DNA from: Aidingimonas halophila
GTDB taxonomy: Bacteria; Pseudomonadota; Gammaproteobacteria; Pseudomonadales; Halomonadaceae
Direction of reading: 5' to 3'
DNA: 64,000 bases
NCBI RefSeq assembly: GCF_900106955.1
Contig: NZ_FNNI01000005.1
Coordinates: forward strand, 248,001-312,000
The number at the start of each line of letters is the position of its first letter. Positions within the stretch are counted from its first letter, which is position 1. The position numbers and the translations under genes are program-made. Positions 22,812-31,477 of this stretch are shown here, in pieces. The notes below the pieces were generated by a model, which was given only the letters and a program-made list of their open reading frames with translations, was not told the DNA's origin and did no database searches.

Positions 22812-23257
22812 GGCTTGTTCGTGTATAGCGTCTTGGGATCAATAAGCGGTGCCTGATCCACCCAGGCTTTGTTCTGTTCCAGTCGCACATAGAAACAACT
22901 TCGCCTCCCCGTGTGGCAAGCCGGTCCTTCCTGGTCGACCTGGAGCAGCAGGGTGTCACCATCACAATCGAGGTTCATGGCCTTGAGTTTCTGAACCTGT
23001 CCGGAAGACTCTCCCTTGCGCCAGAGCGTTGATCGCGAACGGGACCAGTAGCAAACCCGATGGCTTTGCAATGTTTTTTCCAGGGCCTCGCGGTTCATCC
23101 AGGCCATCATCAGGACTTCACCACTGTCGTACTGTTGCGCGATGGCCGGAATCAGACCATCGGCATTCCAGCGAATGGCATTCAGAACCTCGTCCTTGTC
23201 AGGCTCGAAGTGACTGTCCGACGGCTCGAGATGTTGGAATAGCTGACTCATGGGCAC
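22808..23257 (-). CDS. hisI: Phosphoribosyl-AMP cyclohydrolase
   Basis: HisI opens the adenine ring of PR-AMP in histidine synthesis, a zinc-dependent step. The product is 149 residues. Motifs are [21 protein letters not shown], the [19 protein letters not shown] loop, and the metal site DCDGD...[12 protein letters not shown] with all three expected cysteines. It is a stand-alone HisI with no HisE fusion or other his gene nearby. It lies 23 bp downstream of a zinc-uptake-type regulator and overlaps yidD, so it may be a zinc-regulated paralogue (inference). An alternative start is Met3 (23251). Confidence 0.93.
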
Positions 23258-23280
23258 ACCCTATGGGTTCGGAAAAGACA

Positions 23281-23721
23281 TCAAGAAGCGCAGCAATGGC
23301 CACAAAGCCCTAAAAGTTCGATGGTCTGGCGTTCGATGGCAAATCCAAGCGTACGTGCTCGTTCTCCAAGTAAGGTATTGACGTCATCAAGATGCAACTC
23401 CTCGACACGACCGCACGAACGGCAAATCAACAATTGAAAGCCATGCACATGTTCCGGGCAAGGGCAGGCAACATAGGCATTCAGGGACTCGATGCGGTGT
23501 ACGAGCCCCTGTTCGATCAGGAAGTCCAGTGCACGGTAAACGGTAGGCGGTCTCGCCGCTTCATGCTCGGTGGCTAGCTTGTCCAGCAACTCATATGCCT
23601 TGAGCCCACCACTCGCCGTTGCAATCATTTCCAGCACCCGTCGCCGTATCGGTGTGAAACGGACGCCTCGATTATGGCATTGGCGTTCAGCTTGCTGTAT
23701 TAAAAGGGTCGTATCGGCCAT
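23281..23721 (-). CDS. zur: Fur-family regulator, Zur-like zinc uptake repressor
   Basis: The product is 146 residues with a Fur-type winged helix (about 15-85; VRFTPIRRRVLEMIATASGGLKAYELLDKL, PTVYRALDFLIEQGLVHRIESLNAYVAC) and a dimerisation domain with HVHGFQLLICRSCGRVEEL. A second Cys pair at the C-terminus (LCGHCC) completes the structural zinc site. The spacing and sequence look like Zur more than Fur or PerR. Zur represses zinc uptake genes when zinc is plentiful; no znuABC is in the window. It heads the zur-hisI-yidD operon. I could not find a convincing Zur box upstream. Confidence 0.85.
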   Translation of the reverse strand: MADTTLLIQQAERQCHNRGVRFTPIRRRVLEMIATASGGLKAYELLDKLATEHEAARPPTVYRALDFLIEQGLVHRIESLNAYVACPCPEHVHGFQLLICRSCGRVEELHLDDVNTLLGERARTLGFAIERQTIELLGLCGHCCAS

Positions 23722-23776
23722 GGAGTGCCTGGATTCATCGAATGTACCGGCCCTATTCTACGTGGCCAACACGTTA

Positions 23777-24781
23777 TCAGCCAGCCGATACCGATGCCTG
23801 ATGAGAGATATCGCTCTGGACCGGGGGGAGTTCTCCCTGGCGTGCAAAGTGATGTTGAGAAAAGGCGACACGCGTTTCGACATCCGCCCCTGCAGACTGT
23901 TGTTCGATTAAATCGAGGCGAGGGCGCAGTCCTTCACCATTGGCCATTTGAATGGCCAGACCTGGGCGGGCATTGAGCTCAAGCAGCATGGGGCCATGGT
24001 GGCGATCCAGCACCATATCTGTCCCCAGATAACCAAGGCCGGTCATTTCATAGCAGCGAGCGGCGAGACGAAGCAATGTGTCCCAGCCAGGAATTCTTAG
24101 GCTGGCAAGTTCATGGCCGGTGTCGGGGTGATCGTTTCGTGTACGATCGAACTGTACTCCGCGAAGCGCCGTGCCGGTTGCAATATCCAAACCGACGCCG
24201 ACAGCTCCCTGATGAAGGTTGGCCTTGCCATCCGAGGCAGCGGTCGAGAGGCGCATCATCGCCATGACCGGGTACCCCTGGAAGATAATGACACGGATAT
24301 CGGGGACACCTTCGTATGTGTATTCCGATAAGGATTCGTCGAAATTTATCAAGGCTTCGACGACAGCGACATCCGGGGACCCACCCAATGAATAAAGCCC
24401 GGACAGGATATTGGAGACATGCCTTTCCAGCGCCTCTCGACCGAGACGTGTACCACTGGGCTTGATGTAAGCCTCGTTGTTGACGTGCTCGATGACCAGA
24501 ATGCCTTTGCCACCACTTCCTTTGGCCGGTTTGATGGCAAAACCGGCATGTCCTTGAACGATACGACTGATGTGCTTGACGTCAAACTGCGTTTCGATGG
24601 TGCCGATCAACGCTGGTGTCGTGATCCCATGTTCGCGGGCCAGTAGCTTGGTCTTGAGTTTATCGTCGACCAAAGGGTACAGACGGCGGTTATTGTAGCG
24701 GCCGATATAACGGATATTCCGCCGGTTCATACCGATGATGCCTTTTCCTGACAGCTTCCCGGGTGTGGTCCAGTTGACCAT
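23777..24781 (-). CDS. ATP-grasp ligase, alpha-L-glutamate ligase-like (RimK-related)
   Basis: The product is 334 residues. It starts with GIIGMNRRNIRYIGRYNNRRLYPLVDDKLKTKLLAREHGI, the hallmark of the RimK-related ligase-like family, and has an ATP-grasp core: GFAIKPAKGSGGKGILVI (nucleotide loop), VPDIRVIIFQGYPVMAMMR and DMVLDRHHGPMLLELNARPGL (metal-binding E and N). ATP-grasp enzymes join a carboxylate to an amine or thiol. The substrate is unknown; peptide or amino-acid ligation is predicted from the fold. It is the last gene of a conserved trio, starting 4 bp after the 7TM gene. Confidence 0.87.
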   Translation of the reverse strand: MVNWTTPGKLSGKGIIGMNRRNIRYIGRYNNRRLYPLVDDKLKTKLLAREHGITTPALIGTIETQFDVKHISRIVQGHAGFAIKPAKGSGGKGILVIEHVNNEAYIKPSGTRLGREALERHVSNILSGLYSLGGSPDVAVVEALINFDESLSEYTYEGVPDIRVIIFQGYPVMAMMRLSTAASDGKANLHQGAVGVGLDIATGTALRGVQFDRTRNDHPDTGHELASLRIPGWDTLLRLAARCYEMTGLGYLGTDMVLDRHHGPMLLELNARPGLAIQMANGEGLRPRLDLIEQQSAGADVETRVAFSQHHFARQGELPPVQSDISHQASVSAG

Positions 24782-24785
24782 GCCG

Positions 24786-26291
24786 TCAGTCCTCCGTTAC
24801 CGGCTTGAAACGACGCAATTCCAGCAATCGATAGCCTGTGTAGTTGCCCAGCAGCAAGATCAATGCCATCAGTATCAGTTGCACACCGAGGAAGTTGAAG
24901 GTGATGTGACGCACCCAGGGATTGTTCATCGCCAGATAGGCGAGAATTGCGGTCACAAGACTGCCTCCCCCTTGAATGAGCACCTCTTTGGGGCCTTCTT
25001 CTTCCCACAGGATCGACATTCTTTCGATGGTCCAGGCCAGAATGATCATTGGGAAGAAAGTGATGGTGAGCCCCGCATTGAGCCCGAATCGGTATGAGAG
25101 TACCGAAAACACTGAAATGATGGCGATGACGGTGATGATAACGGCGGAGACGCGCGCCACGAGTAACAGGTTGAGGTAGGACAGATAGTTGCGAATGACC
25201 AGGCCTACTGCAACCACCAGCAGAAAACCGATGAGCCCCGTCAACAACGACGTCTGTATGAAGGCGAGGGCGATAAGCACTGGCATGAAGGTGCCCGATG
25301 TCTTGATGCCGACGAGAACGCGCAAGAAGACGACGACCAATGCGCCGATAGGGATCAGGAGTATTGTCTGGAAAAGCGCCTGTTCTTCCAGTGGCAAGCT
25401 ATGAATGGAGAAATTGAGCAGCGTATCGGTAGACAGCTGATTACGGACAGCCGCTGCAGCCGGCTGATTTTGCCGGATCATCGAGAAGTTGATATCGGAG
25501 TTGGTTCCACCTTCAACCTCGAGAACGGCTTCTCCGCTGGTCTCCCACAAGAGCAGATTTTTCGGCCAGCCCTGTTCTCCGGTTCTAGGATTGAATAGGG
25601 CCCATTGGTCATCATCGAAGACCTGAAGCCAGGTGGTCAACTTCTGCCGCCGTCGGCCATCCTCGAGCAGTAGACCGCTGACTGTTCGTGCATGGACACC
25701 TGCCTCGTTCAAGAGACGCACCAGTAGCGGACCACGATCGAATTCATTCAAGAGCAGGCGCGCGTTTTCACCCTGTCGGTCACCGGTAAACTCACGTATC
25801 AACTCCCGGGTGAATGTGTAGGGATCGGCGGATCGCTGGTATGCGCGATCGATGATCTCCTCGGCAGCCGTATCGAAAGGGCGCTCCCAGACGATATTCT
25901 CGGGCAGCTCGGGCGCTGTAGCCTCGGAAGACCGAGAGTCGGGTGCCTCCAGCAACTGTACGGAGTAATATAGCCGCTGGGTATCGCTGGCTTCCCGAAC
26001 CGACCATTCGGCTCGCCTGCCGTTGTTCTCTTCAAGGAACGAGAGACCATAGCCTGACGATGCCGTGTTCTCCGTCAAGACACGATAGCCTTGCTGATTG
26101 GAAGGTAACGCCATATTAACAACTGCGGGGCCATCGTCGGCATCGAAACTCACCTGGGCTTCGACCTCCCAGACCTGTCGCGTTTCGTCAGGTGTCCAGG
26201 GAACATCGAATTGCACATGCCGATGGATGGTCATGGCAATGCCCGCAACCAGAAGGATCCCGATAAGAAAATAGAAGGGCAGACGTGACAT
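24786..26291 (-). CDS. Inactive transglutaminase-like domain fused to 7 transmembrane helices
   Basis: The 501-residue product has an N-terminal membrane anchor (about 5-22) and a periplasmic region to about 270. The later part of that region (about 145-245; LLVRLLNEAGVHARTVSGLL, then TTWLQVFDDDQWALFNPRTGEQG) resembles a transglutaminase core that has lost the Cys and His of the catalytic triad (Thr in the His position). About seven hydrophobic helices follow from about 290 to 490, ending in a short RRF tail. The family is described as inactive transglutaminase fused to 7TM. It should bind a peptide or ligand outside and signal or anchor inside (inference). It is the middle gene of the trio. 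Confidence 0.85.
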   Translation of the reverse strand: MSRLPFYFLIGILLVAGIAMTIHRHVQFDVPWTPDETRQVWEVEAQVSFDADDGPAVVNMALPSNQQGYRVLTENTASSGYGLSFLEENNGRRAEWSVREASDTQRLYYSVQLLEAPDSRSSEATAPELPENIVWERPFDTAAEEIIDRAYQRSADPYTFTRELIREFTGDRQGENARLLLNEFDRGPLLVRLLNEAGVHARTVSGLLLEDGRRRQKLTTWLQVFDDDQWALFNPRTGEQGWPKNLLLWETSGEAVLEVEGGTNSDINFSMIRQNQPAAAAVRNQLSTDTLLNFSIHSLPLEEQALFQTILLIPIGALVVVFLRVLVGIKTSGTFMPVLIALAFIQTSLLTGLIGFLLVVAVGLVIRNYLSYLNLLLVARVSAVIITVIAIISVFSVLSYRFGLNAGLTITFFPMIILAWTIERMSILWEEEGPKEVLIQGGGSLVTAILAYLAMNNPWVRHITFNFLGVQLILMALILLLGNYTGYRLLELRRFKPVTED

Positions 26292-26319
26292 GGAGGATCC
26301 TTGTCGTTAATCCGGTTGG

Positions 26320-27192
26320 TTATTCGTTTTCTGCGACATCGTCATCTCGAGCCTCATCCTCTTCCGCTTGGTCAGCGGATTCCCCACCGGGAAACTCGGG
26401 ACGTTCATAACGATACTTCTCGGCTACATCGACAATTGCGATATCCATCAGGAAGCGCCTTCCCAACAGGACCGGGAAACTCATGTCCTCACGGTCGCTC
26501 AGAGAGAATTCGACATGTTCGCGAATAGGCCCCAGTGTCATCAAGAGGCTGATAACCGGCCGGGTTTCTGTTCCTGACGCCTGCAATATACGGACTTGTC
26601 TCTCCACCGGGGCCTCGATCCATTCATCGCGAACGCTTTCGACGACAGCGGCATCATCATCAAGAGCCAGCTTGAAACGCACCCAATCTTCACCGTCGCG
26701 CTCAAAGGAAGTGATATCCCGAGCGGAAAGCGAGGCCGTATCGGCGCCGGAATCGACTCTTGCCTTGAGATAAGTGCCGACATCGGGGAAACCGACCCAT
26801 TCGCTGCGTCCCAGAACCTGTTTGTTGCGATAGCTATCACTGTCATCGTCGATATCACAAAGCGAGGGAGGCACTTCGGGATTACCGCCGAGAAAATTGA
26901 TATCGCTCCGGAGACGACGTAGCAGACTGCCGATTTCACGAACATCCGAGGTGAGTGTCAGGGTGTCGTTACGTAAGGCTTCGCTGGCATCACGGCTGAC
27001 TTCACATTGGCTGGACATGGTTTGTTCCAGTTCCGCCATGCGTGAGTCGAACATTTCAGGCGTCACTGTCGGTTCAGGCTCTTCCTGATCCCATGGCAGG
27101 GTCGTACATCCCGTCAATAGCGCTGCCGGTATGATCCAGAGGAGAAGACATGCCGGTAATCGAAATGTTGCACGAGGGGAAGTCCGTTGCAT
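26320..27192 (-). CDS. Retropepsin-like (RimB/'ATP-dependent zinc protease' family) lipoprotein
   Basis: The product is 290 residues. A signal peptide with lipobox (ALLTGC, Cys29) predicts a lipoprotein; a coiled segment follows (about 45-100), then a retropepsin-type domain at about 125-270 with the catalytic motif VDSGADTASL and the closing FPVLLGRRFL flap/strand pattern. The last 25 residues are highly acidic. The family is often annotated as ATP-dependent zinc protease, but the DSGA motif marks an aspartyl-protease fold. It is the first gene of the trio, with 28 bp to the next gene. The substrate is unknown. Confidence 0.85.
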   Translation of the reverse strand: MQRTSPRATFRLPACLLLWIIPAALLTGCTTLPWDQEEPEPTVTPEMFDSRMAELEQTMSSQCEVSRDASEALRNDTLTLTSDVREIGSLLRRLRSDINFLGGNPEVPPSLCDIDDDSDSYRNKQVLGRSEWVGFPDVGTYLKARVDSGADTASLSARDITSFERDGEDWVRFKLALDDDAAVVESVRDEWIEAPVERQVRILQASGTETRPVISLLMTLGPIREHVEFSLSDREDMSFPVLLGRRFLMDIAIVDVAEKYRYERPEFPGGESADQAEEDEARDDDVAENE

Positions 27193-27247
27193 GAGGGCGG
27201 AGGTCCTTTGCGGAAACGCGAACAGGAAAATGATTGAAGGTTAAGGA

Positions 27248-27277
27248 ATCATAAAGACTTGAAAGCTAGACTTCCAA
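27248..27277 (-). promoter_or_regulatory. Candidate promoter of the retropepsin-7TM-ligase operon
   Basis: On the minus strand, TTGGAA (27272-27277) and TATGAT (27248-27253) are spaced 18 bp apart, about 56 bp upstream of the retropepsin start codon, within an AT-rich island. The -35 is weak, so this is tentative. Confidence 0.35.
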
Positions 27278-27296
27278 TTTTCCAGGTTTAATTTAA

Positions 27297-27312
27297 CATA
27301 ATATACATTATG
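27297..27312. promoter_or_regulatory. Perfect inverted repeat CATAAT-N4-ATTATG
   Basis: Arms 27297-27302 and 27307-27312 form a dyad around ATAC. It sits about 20 bp upstream of the candidate promoter of the retropepsin operon, a typical place for a regulator to bind. The binding protein is unknown. Confidence 0.4.
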
Positions 27313-27392
27313 CGAAATATTGGCCATGAATCATATCTTGCCACTGCAATCCGTGCTGTGTTCATCGTCTAAGGATTATCTCTCTGTGACAT

Positions 27393-27428
27393 ATGACGCC
27401 CCTGGCGGCATTGATCTCGGGGCGTCAT
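27393..27428 (-). terminator. Probable terminator after ectC
   Basis: The 10-bp perfect stem ATGACGCCCC/GGGGCGTCAT (27393-27402 with 27419-27428) with a 16-nt loop begins 16 bp past the ectC stop. On the minus strand it is followed by an AT-containing but not U-rich stretch. Confidence 0.6.
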
Positions 27429-27444
27429 GGGTTCGGTGTCAGCG

Positions 27445-27858
27445 TCAGAGCGGCTGATTGTCACCGGCTTCGCCGGATGGCGCATATGACCCGTCTTCTC
27501 GGTGTACCTCGTTGCCAGTCAGTCCTGGCGTGAAGACGCAGGCCAGATGCATGGTCTTCTGGGCACGAAGCAGATGCTCGTCATGCTGGTCGAGAATATA
27601 GATATCGCCCGGCTTGATCGGCCAGATTTTTCCGTCAGCCAGGGTTTCTACCTCGCCTTCACCTTCAATGCAGTAGACCGCCTCGAAATGATGCTTGTAG
27701 TGGATATGAGTCTCGGTGCCTGCATAGATCCGTGTGATGTGAAAGGAGCAGTTACCTCCGTCATCGGCGAGACTCAGGCGTGTGCTATCCCAGTTGCCAT
27801 TCTCGGCCTTGACCAGGCGATCGGTTTGACGGGCTTCTTCGAGATTACGAACGATCAT
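27445..27858 (-). CDS. ectC: L-ectoine synthase
   Basis: EctC closes N-gamma-acetyl-diaminobutyrate to ectoine by removing water, the last step of ectoine synthesis in the cytoplasm. The 137-residue cupin protein starts [20 protein letters not shown] and carries the metal-site region [22 protein letters not shown] and the [11 protein letters not shown] stretch. It is very similar to H. elongata EctC as I recall it. A GGAGG site precedes ATG 27858. An 84-bp gap with a strong hairpin separates it from ectB, so its dosage may be set separately. Confidence 0.97.
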
Positions 27859-27886
27859 CGTGCATTTCCTCCAGGTAGATACACGG

Positions 27887-27914
27887 ACGACGGCCCGTCG
27901 CAACGGGCCGTCGT
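27887..27914 (-). promoter_or_regulatory. Strong hairpin between ectB and ectC
   Basis: The perfect 12-bp stem ACGACGGCCCGT/ACGGGCCGTCGT with a 4-nt loop lies in the 84-bp gap. On the minus strand no U-tract follows, so it looks like a processing, stabilising or partial-termination element and not a full terminator. Confidence 0.55.
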
Positions 27915-27942
27915 TGTTATTGAGTCTAGTGCGCCGGCAAGA

Positions 27943-29329
<1,387 letters not shown>

Positions 29330-29350
29330 GTACTGGGATTCGGGAAAGCA

Positions 29351-29929
29351 TCAGATACGCTCGGGTTGAAAGGGTCCGATACGTACCAGATTTTCGGGGT
29401 CGTGCTCACCACCGAGCTGATCGGTGGAAAAATATTCACGACTGTTAAGAGGCGCTTGCCAACGATCGGCAAGACGGGTGAACAACCCCCAGGACGCTTC
29501 GTTGTCCGGAGTGATCGTCGTTTCCAGATGACGCACTTCAGCCAGTTCCGGACGTCTCATCACGGCCTCGACCAAACGGCGTGCCAGTCCTGTACCACGC
29601 GCCTTTTCACCGACAGCGACTTGCCACAGGAAATAGGTATCCGGCGCATTGCTCTTCACGTAACCAGAAACGAAGCCGACGATTTCCCCCTCTTCATTGG
29701 TGGCAACCGCGCAGCTATCGCGGAACTGGGTGGCCAGAAGCAAATAGGCGTAGGCGGAATTGACATCAAGGGGGGGGCACGATTTGACCAGCTCGTAGAT
29801 ACCCCAGCCATCGTCGGGATTGGGCTTGCGTATGAAAAGCGGCGTGTTCTCATTGCCGACCACTGCATCTGCCACACTCGGGCGTGCCAGGTCGGCAGAT
29901 GGCGTGAAAGGCTGTGTCGATACGTTCAT
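29351..29929 (-). CDS. ectA: L-2,4-diaminobutyrate N-gamma-acetyltransferase
   Basis: EctA acetylates diaminobutyrate with acetyl-CoA, the second step of ectoine synthesis. The 192-residue GNAT protein has IYELVKSCPPLDVNSAYAYLLLATQF, the acetyl-CoA loop VAVGEKARGTGLARRLVEAV, and TTITPDNEASWGLF, nearly as in H. elongata EctA, which is also 192 residues. ATG 29929 is chosen by that match; the ribosome site (GGAAA) is modest, and an upstream in-frame ATG at 29956 would overlap the promoter. It is the first gene of the ectABC operon. Confidence 0.97.
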   Translation of the reverse strand: MNVSTQPFTPSADLARPSVADAVVGNENTPLFIRKPNPDDGWGIYELVKSCPPLDVNSAYAYLLLATQFRDSCAVATNEEGEIVGFVSGYVKSNAPDTYFLWQVAVGEKARGTGLARRLVEAVMRRPELAEVRHLETTITPDNEASWGLFTRLADRWQAPLNSREYFSTDQLGGEHDPENLVRIGPFQPERI

Positions 29930-29961
29930 GTTTCCATTTCGCTGTTGCGAATTCACCGCTA

Positions 29962-29990
29962 ATTATAAACAGTCCTTTTGAGGAGATCAA
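29962..29990 (-). promoter_or_regulatory. Candidate sigma-70 promoter of ectABC
   Basis: On the minus strand, TTGATC (29985-29990) and a consensus TATAAT (29962-29967) are separated by exactly 17 bp. The predicted transcript would start about 25-30 nt before the ectA ATG. The -35 and spacer lie inside an imperfect inverted repeat (see next entry). Confidence 0.7.
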
Positions 29991-29995
29991 AAAGG
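29974..29995. promoter_or_regulatory. Imperfect inverted repeat overlapping the ectA -35 region
   Basis: CCTTTTGA (29974-29981) mirrors the TCAAAAAGG end (29987-29995) with one extra A. A protein bound here would cover the -35 box, so it could be an operator for osmotic or other control. No binding protein is known from the sequence. Confidence 0.4.
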
Positions 29996-30115
29996 CTCTT
30001 ATCTCACAGCGCAAAATCGATAAATCGAGGTTATGGTGAGGGTGGCCGGAATGAGCAGCCCCGATCAGGAGCTGACCATTCCGCTACAACCGGTCATCGG
30101 CGTTACTTGCTCGTC

Positions 30116-31477
30116 TCAACGGCGAGTGACAGTTCGCATTGTCACGAATTCCTCGGCTCCTGTCGGATGGATGCCAACCGTGGCATCGAAATCATCCTTG
30201 GTAAGACCGGAACGCACGGCGATCGCGATGCCCTGGATGACCTCCCCCGCCTCTTCGCCGACCATATGGGCGCCGACGACGCGGTCGGATGCATCATCGA
30301 CGATGAGCTTCATCAGACAACGCTCATCACTTCCCGACAGTGTGTGTTTCATGGGCCTGAAATCGGCGCTGTAGACACGAATATCACCACAGGTGGAACG
30401 GGCCTCCTCTTCTGAGAGACCGACGGTGCCGATATTCGGATGACAGAACACGGCTGTCGCGATGTTTTTATAGTCCAGCGGTCGGGGCGGTGCGTCAGTA
30501 AAGTGATGCTGAACCATATGCATCGCTTCTTCCAACGCCACGGGAGTCAGCTCGGGGCCTCCGGTCACATCGCCCAGGGCCAGAATCGACGGTACCGAGG
30601 TCTCGTACCGCTCGTTGACCTTGAGAGTACCATCATCGTTGAGTTCCACATCGAGCTTGTCCAGGCCGAGACTCTGCAGGTGCGGTTTACGCCCTGTCGC
30701 TGCCAGCACGGCATCGACTTCCATCACGTCGCCGCTGGTCAGCGTGACATGCAAACCACCTTCGATGCGGTCTATACGCTCGATATTGGTCCCGAAATGA
30801 AGGTTGACGCCCTTTTTGGTCATCTCGTCTCGCGTGAACTCCCGCACTTCTCGATCGAATCCCCGAAGGAATAGCTCGCCGCGATATACCAAATGCGTGT
30901 CACTTCCCAATCCATTGAATATGCTTGCAAATTCGATGGCAATATAGCCGCCGCCCAATACCAGGAAGCGCTTGGGGAAAGTATCGAGATCAAAGACCTG
31001 GTTGGAGTTGACAACGTGTTCGTTACCCGGGAAGTCCGGAACCCAAGGCCAGCCGCCAGTGGCCACGAGGATCTTGTCGGAGCTGATCGTCTCCCCCGCC
31101 ACTTCGACATGGTGGGCATCGACGACGCGAGCGCGTCCATTGATCAGGCGGACATCGGCACCGTCGAGCAAGCGTCCGTAGATACCATTGAGACGCTTGA
31201 TTTCCGCGATCTTGTTATCCCGTAGCGTGGGCCAGTCAAAACGCGGCGCTTCAGGCAATGTCCAGCCGAAACCGGCACTGTCCTTGAACGATTCATGGAA
31301 ATGCGCGGCATACGAATAGAGTTTCTTGGGAACGCAACCGACATTGACGCAGGTGCCTCCCAGATAGCGGTCTTCCGCGACAGCCACCCGGGCGCCGGTA
31401 GCTGCTGCCGTACGAGCCGCACGGACGCCACCGGAACCCGCACCGATGACAAAGAGATCATAATCAAACTCGGACAC
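30116..31477 (-). CDS. gorA: Glutathione-disulfide reductase
   Basis: Gor reduces oxidised glutathione with NADPH and FAD, keeping the cytosol reducing. The 453-residue protein has the FAD site [20 protein letters not shown], the redox-active disulfide [13 protein letters not shown], the NADPH-binding [17 protein letters not shown] with downstream Arg residues ([11 protein letters not shown]) that favour NADPH, and the C-terminal His-Glu pair in [13 protein letters not shown]. Length and motifs match E. coli Gor (450). It is encoded alone, about 150 bp from the divergent carbonic anhydrase gene. Confidence 0.95.

Follow-up and report, generated by a model that had tools for sequence, protein, structure and literature searches.

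The 64,000-nucleotide stretch of DNA analysed here, hereafter the window, comes from Aidingimonas halophila (Halomonadaceae; assembly GCF_900106955.1, contig NZ_FNNI01000005.1, positions 248,001 to 312,000) and carries three adjacent genes that we identify as rloA, rloB and rloC (Table 1). All three run in the same direction on the minus strand, separated by 28 bp and then by 4 bp, and they form one operon; this part of the initial annotation, including the gene coordinates, was borne out by the minus-strand open reading frames. The same annotation had described the system as uncharacterised, which it is not. It is largely ordinary, a copy of the envelope-stress operon published in 2025 from Pseudomonas aeruginosa, where rloA, rloB and rloC likewise constitute one operon (Lormand et al., 2025; PMC12239564). 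We estimate at about 95% the probability that the three genes are the rloABC operon of a halophilic Halomonas-group gammaproteobacterium. In the open-access literature, outside which lie most subscription journals and all bioRxiv preprints, a search retrieved no further paper on the Rlo system as such.

Table 1. Positions of the rlo genes and of neighbouring features in the window.
Feature	Position	Strand	Description
rloA	26320-27192	minus	290 aa lipoprotein, retropepsin-like aspartic protease; lipobox Cys29, helical stalk ~45-101, conserved Cys63/Cys112, catalytic D147-SGA
rloB	24786-26291	minus	501 aa; N-terminal helix, periplasmic beta-sandwich plus inactive transglutaminase fold, C-terminal seven-transmembrane (7TM) domain
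rloC	23777-24781	minus	334 aa RimK-related ATP-grasp ligase (TIGR02291)
Fur-family regulator	23281-23721	minus	directly downstream of rloC; nearest Zur, 138.5 bits against an NCBIfam cut-off of 167
dif	27291-27318	minus	XerCD chromosome dimer resolution site; 25/28 identical to E. coli dif; includes the dyad 27297-27312
hairpin	27393-27428	minus	after ectC; 10-bp stem, 16-nt loop
ectC	27445-27858	minus	syntenic neighbour outside the operon; EctC over NCBIfam cut-off
ectB	27943-29283	minus	upstream of ectC; EctB over NCBIfam cut-off
ectA	29351-29956	minus	upstream of ectB; EctA over NCBIfam cut-off

The earlier family calls, a lipoprotein protease with a DSGA motif, a dead transglutaminase joined to a 7TM domain and a RimK-related ATP-grasp ligase, were confirmed by Pfam, by NCBIfam and by the absence of the catalytic cysteine discussed below. 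Pfam assigned RloA to PF05618, RloB to PF14400 and PF14402, and RloC to PF14397, and RloC passed the NCBIfam model TIGR02291 with 451.9 bits against a cut-off of 314.2. The best NCBIfam model for the window RloA was the RloA3 model, at 119.7 bits and below its cut-off of 210, and the NCBIfam RloB model gave 360.5 bits, below its cut-off of 900; three of the NCBIfam Rlo models used are of the type 'exception'. At the sequence level, the identity of rloABC is that of an orthologous system recognized by families and synteny, not that of the protein named by NCBI.

RloA carries a lipobox at Cys29, a secretion signal judged by motif alone, and the active-site motif D147-S-G-A, which conforms to D[ST]GA; its solved structural relatives are 9g59, 9g58 and 2pma. 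Among the 39 RloAs called in loci of the family and order, 34 had a lipobox motif, a count affected by some start codons called too far upstream or downstream, and 37 had D[ST]GA, the remaining two carrying D[ST]GS. Four basic residues coordinate poly-glutamate in the published protease, namely K46, R92, R114 and R137 (PMC12239564). An alignment, together with offsets from the catalytic Asp in 9g58 that agree with the paper's numbering, maps these to R145, R188, R211 and R234 of the window RloA, with K46 becoming Arg. In 36 aligned RloA sequences (that of the window and 35 from named records), R211 and R234 never vary, and conservation of R145 and R188 is at least 90%.

The same alignment showed Cys63 and Cys112 to be invariant and the catalytic domain to be devoid of any conserved cysteine, the window RloA having none past residue 112. 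A disulfide in the catalytic domain was seen in two RloA structures and was called conserved in periplasmic orthologues (PMC12239564), but it is absent from the window RloA, where the Cys pair sits N-terminal to the protease; we treat this disulfide as a structural trait and do not count it as defining the rloABC operon. The AlphaFold model of RloA predicted a single confident helix at 45-101, between lipobox and protease (block predicted local distance difference test, pLDDT, 86-92), and was poor over the protease half (pLDDT <50 at 111-152 and 236-266), and only the 45-101 helix was used from it. The window protein is a natural RloA variant, a lipid-anchored helical stalk with a Cys pair. 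In one related locus (L066, G055:C60:33470-34360), a tandem pair of PF05618 domains occupies a single 406-aa open frame upstream of rloB, and this arrangement could possibly encode a single-chain protease dimer.

The window RloB contains no cysteine, and the catalytic region lacks Cys in all 17 aligned RloBs (window included), so its transglutaminase domain cannot be a Cys enzyme. No sequence relative of RloB was found in the PDB at an E-value of 0.1. Foldseek and VIA matches fell mainly within the periplasmic part (37-277), which aligned with 3isr at Z 14.2 (3.8 Å over 212 residues) and with TgpA at Z 6.9 (4.2 Å over 164 residues); a transglutaminase fold is thus supported for the modelled periplasmic part, mainly by the 3isr match. 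The 7TM half was modelled with a block pLDDT of ~32-53 and owes its identity solely to the Pfam match. RloB hence presents a transglutaminase fold lacking the catalytic Cys and fused to a 7TM domain. The PDB holds only weak, RimK-type relatives of RloC (best 7qys, 6e-6). RloC is 27% identical to the genome's own RimK and has in common with it the ATP-grasp positions K84, D161/R163, N188/H190, D255, E268 and N270.

We then examined the distribution of the system in a comparison set of 78 relatives, the window genome included, for which presence counts were not corrected for relatedness. RloB was found in 47 of the 78 genomes and a TIGR02291 match in the same 47, with 46 of these over the cut-off and the exception (G059) fragmentary. 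Across 40 loci taken from 39 of these 47 genomes, rloB adjoined rloC without exception, and rloA was located beside them by tblastn in 38; in one of the other two (L073), a PF05618 gene missed by tblastn was found just upstream by profile search.

The PF05618 family is also represented outside the operon. After merging one split match (G022) and setting aside one broken fragment (G029), we counted at least three PF05618 genes in 24 and two in 8 of the 32 genomes of the family that have rloBC. Of the 17 family genomes lacking rloBC, none had three, one (G028) had two, 14 had one, and G018 and G019 had none. An RloA3-type paralogue outside the operon occurred in 24/32 rloBC-positive vs 0/17 rloBC-negative family genomes, a contrast likewise uncorrected for relatedness. 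The unlinked paralogue of the window genome (L002) passed the NCBIfam RloA3 equivalog cut-off (247.1 vs 210 bits), and the other 23 RloA3-type proteins, whose hydrophobic leader before the domain was judged by eye, matched L002 best, with at least 202 bits vs at most 71 for RimB. In the eight rloBC-positive genomes with two PF05618 genes, the one outside the operon adjoins rimK, and a RimB-type gene lies beside rimK in 15/15 rloBC-negative family genomes with PF05618; in G024, the open frame extends upstream of the likely start and would take in a hydrophobic stretch, which makes the location of that protein less sure. In five rloBC-negative genomes elsewhere in the order, no PF05618 protein showed an evident leader, and four of the five had rimK next to the gene or fused to it. 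The confinement of RloA3 to rloBC-positive genomes within the family supports a pathway shared by RloA3 and rloBC, and it provides independent comparative support for the idea that secreted RloA proteases serve RloB and RloC, tying a published envelope-stress system to halophiles.

In P. aeruginosa, three secreted RloA proteases are redundantly needed for growth without salt, RloA in vitro cuts reporters that carry runs of 8 or 10 Glu and leaves those with at most 6 uncut, and when rloB or rloC is deleted, protease mutants recover completely from their growth defect at low salt and partly from their other defects (PMC12239564). The window genome and its relatives add membership of the three protein families, conservation of catalytic and substrate residues, the joint occurrence of the genes, and an RloA3 that in the family was found only with rloBC. 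The mechanism that we favour, with slightly better than even odds for the whole of it, has RloC synthesising a glutamate chain that RloB handles at the membrane and RloA shortens. Judging from its family and conserved residues, RloC would act in the cytoplasm and join glutamates into a poly-alpha-glutamate chain or onto an acceptor. RloB, in the inner membrane, would move or present the RloC product there, its catalytically dead periplasmic transglutaminase-fold domain probably binding rather than cutting, and lipid-anchored RloA and the unlinked, secreted RloA3 would cut the chain in the periplasm. By analogy with the epistasis in P. aeruginosa, untrimmed RloB/RloC product may turn harmful, above all at low osmolarity. 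The initial annotation had envisaged the making, sensing and cutting of a peptide or amino-acid-tagged molecule across the membrane; its make, membrane and cut logic agrees with the presence of RloB and RloC in the same genomes, although the steps assigned to RloC and RloB are ones that we infer.

Several observations weigh against this identification and mechanism. RloA and RloB, though clear relatives, fall under the NCBIfam Rlo cut-offs, and the low-confidence model of the 7TM part leaves a transport role for RloB without structural support. A second rlo copy in one genome (L072 in G051) lacks rloA by both tblastn and profile search, RloA3 is absent from 8/32 rloBC-positive family genomes, and one exceptional genome (G028, locus L096) keeps a secreted-looking PF05618 protein with neither rloB nor rloC. 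A substrate is not known for A. halophila, nor is one known in vivo for Pseudomonas, and RloC activity is not demonstrated in the available text of PMC12239564.

A less probable but serious alternative is that RloC attaches glutamate to one particular target, either a protein of the membrane or periplasm or an envelope molecule, with RloB as acceptor or scaffold, and that RloA undoes this in the way that RimB acts on RpsF. Poly-glutamylation of RpsF by RimK and its removal by RimB set a precedent (PMC12239564; PMC11957791), and the Rlo authors left both substrate options, free poly-alpha-glutamate or glutamylated proteins, open (PMC12239564). However, no acceptor is known; in Pseudomonas, a search for secreted proteins with at least 8 Glu came up empty, and the single acidic candidate assayed was left uncleaved (PMC12239564).

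More speculatively, and in our view rather unlikely, RloABC might make and trim a periplasmic anionic poly-alpha-glutamate, a peptide counterpart of the periplasmic glucans; RloB would then export the polymer or sense its length, and the secreted RloAs, linked and unlinked, would trim it. If true, this would add to osmotic adaptation a periplasmic polymer of a new class. Osmoregulated periplasmic glucans (MdoG/OpgG family) share the theme of the envelope and low osmolarity, although no homology to Rlo was seen and the window genome has both. In one genome without rlo (G038, L074:5565-8565), MdoG and acyltransferase genes fill the slot between dif and zur, and either cassette, Rlo or glucan, can sit in this position beside dif; this was a single case among the 16 rlo-negative loci fetched (of 17, G028 being left out), and other rlo-negative loci held cyo genes (CyoB, in L076) or various genes there. 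Replacement of glucans by Rlo was rejected, as the two did not exclude each other among 229 genomes of the class: RloB was present in 47 (one below cut-off), MdoG in 34, and both in 13 vs 7.0 expected (Fisher P=0.010, towards co-occurrence). Within the family, 22 genomes had both, 10 rlo only, 14 MdoG only and 3 neither (P=0.50, no association). Two or more MdoG copies were commoner in rlo-negative genomes (14/17 vs 12/32 rlo-positive, P=0.006, uncorrected for relatedness).

It had also been proposed that the operon, which follows ectABC directly and is read from the same strand, serves in osmotic stress and is regulated together with ectoine synthesis under salt stress. The adjacency is real in the window, where ectC and rloA are 252 bp apart, but dif and a stable hairpin intervene. 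The hairpin region folds at -21 kcal/mol (z -2.8), the corresponding region of a congener also contains a hairpin (z -4.2), and although no clear T run is present, the element probably ends ectABC transcription; no RNA family matched the window at the gathering threshold. We compared neighbourhoods in 31 rlo-positive family loci besides the window. The Zur-like gene lies within 150 bp after rloC in 26/31, a conserved link, and is also found where rlo is absent. The ect genes occur in the fetched region of 25/31, yet ectC is within 1.1 kb of rloA in only 16 and within 350 bp in 8, and ectABC was present in 1/9 rlo loci outside the family, in opposite orientation. Between ectC and rloA the distance is as short as 138 bp and as long as 6.4 kb, and the gaps that were read contain other genes. 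In L038 and L090, the DNA beside dif that separates rloA from ectC holds an efflux permease gene of the resistance-nodulation-division type (found by family search in L038 and by reading open frames in L090) together with its partner; the ectC-rloA gaps of L046 and L051 are similar.

In the 16 rlo-negative loci fetched around zur, hisI was retained in 16/16 and ectC in 10/16, and ectC was present somewhere in 15/17 rlo-negative family genomes. Because hisI and ectC persist at zur loci without rlo, the trio is best seen as a variable insert in a conserved block. Ectoine accumulates under the condition opposite to hypo-osmotic stress. The published Rlo phenotype is hypo-osmotic (PMC12239564), and a text search of a Halomonas elongata salinity paper for six terms relating to these genes, one of them a guessed locus-tag prefix, found none. 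With its variable distance, the intervening hairpin and dif, and the opposite sign of the published phenotype, we reject an osmotic regulon with ectABC, the proposed link being weak and co-regulation very improbable.

The initial annotation further placed a promoter candidate and a perfect dyad (27297-27312) upstream of rloA and read them as stress control. Promoter-like matches in 23000-30200 number 6, against 4.5 expected, which is background level. The dyad falls short of perfect, being symmetric at 14 of 16 bases, with perfect 6-bp arms and a 4-bp asymmetric centre, and a palindrome as good arises in 38% of shuffles of the interval. Intergenic DNA has largely diverged between the window and a congener, with ~23 bp around the dyad identical. 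Sequence comparison identifies the dyad as the core of dif, because it lies in a 28-bp element with a 25/28 match to E. coli dif (the three mismatches all within the first four bases), single in the genome at ≤2 mismatches of 19 (a reversed control gave no match), near the GC-skew turn, and present in rlo-negative relatives too. The skew, judged within the window as the genome is in 21 contigs, is +0.031 to the left and -0.024 to the right of dif, with its cumulative maximum at 29480, and the replication terminus region lies inside the window. Counts of FtsK-orienting polar sequences around dif (2/0 left, 2/6 right) were too small to use, and a literature search pairing dif site, XerC and Halomonas found no paper.

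The dif sequence (≤4 mismatches of 19) occurs in many relatives and, in 11/16 rlo-negative loci fetched, is followed by other genes; at ≤4 mismatches of 24 it was found in 65/80 loci from named records, whose titles nearly all point to the Halomonas group. In the window, dif is 98 bp upstream of rloA. Among 77 loci with rloA called, it precedes rloA by at most 300 bp, in a single orientation, in 57, lies further upstream in 3, inverted ~1.5 kb away in 3, and was not seen in the available DNA of 14; nor was it seen in the available DNA of 12 loci outside the family. Where dif and rloABC could both be placed in Halomonas-group loci, they are neighbours in most. An operator controlling rloA, for example for the neighbouring Zur-like regulator, might have been expected from a palindromic, very strongly conserved element ~100 bp upstream of that gene, but is extremely unlikely for a sequence that is dif, and the window's best match to a Zur-box consensus (14/23) was not good. 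The identification of dif removes a false regulatory lead, and the location of rloABC next to dif and ectABC reflects family-level synteny around the replication terminus rather than regulation.

Among known systems, RimB-RimK resembles Rlo in pairing a retropepsin with an ATP-grasp glutamate ligase, and the window genome has this pair as well (L003), although RimB-RimK is cytoplasmic, has no RloB and has its genes separate. Three loci, L111 (G058), L247 (G063) and L248 (G066), have a RimB domain inside a long open frame of 478-493 aa as well as RimK matches, the two being fused in L111 according to its translation and apparently fused in the other two; RimB-RimK hybrids have already been reported (PMC11957791). 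The closest counterpart is RloABC of P. aeruginosa, with the same three families and gene order, a signal-bearing retropepsin whose poly-Glu-coordinating residues are kept in the window RloA, an inactive transglutaminase-7TM protein and an ATP-grasp partner. The window RloA differs in being a lipoprotein with a long helical stalk and Cys63/Cys112, and in lacking the Cys pair of the Pseudomonas catalytic domain. The window genome encodes two secreted RloA-type proteins and RimB, compared with three RloAs and RimB in P. aeruginosa (PMC12239564).

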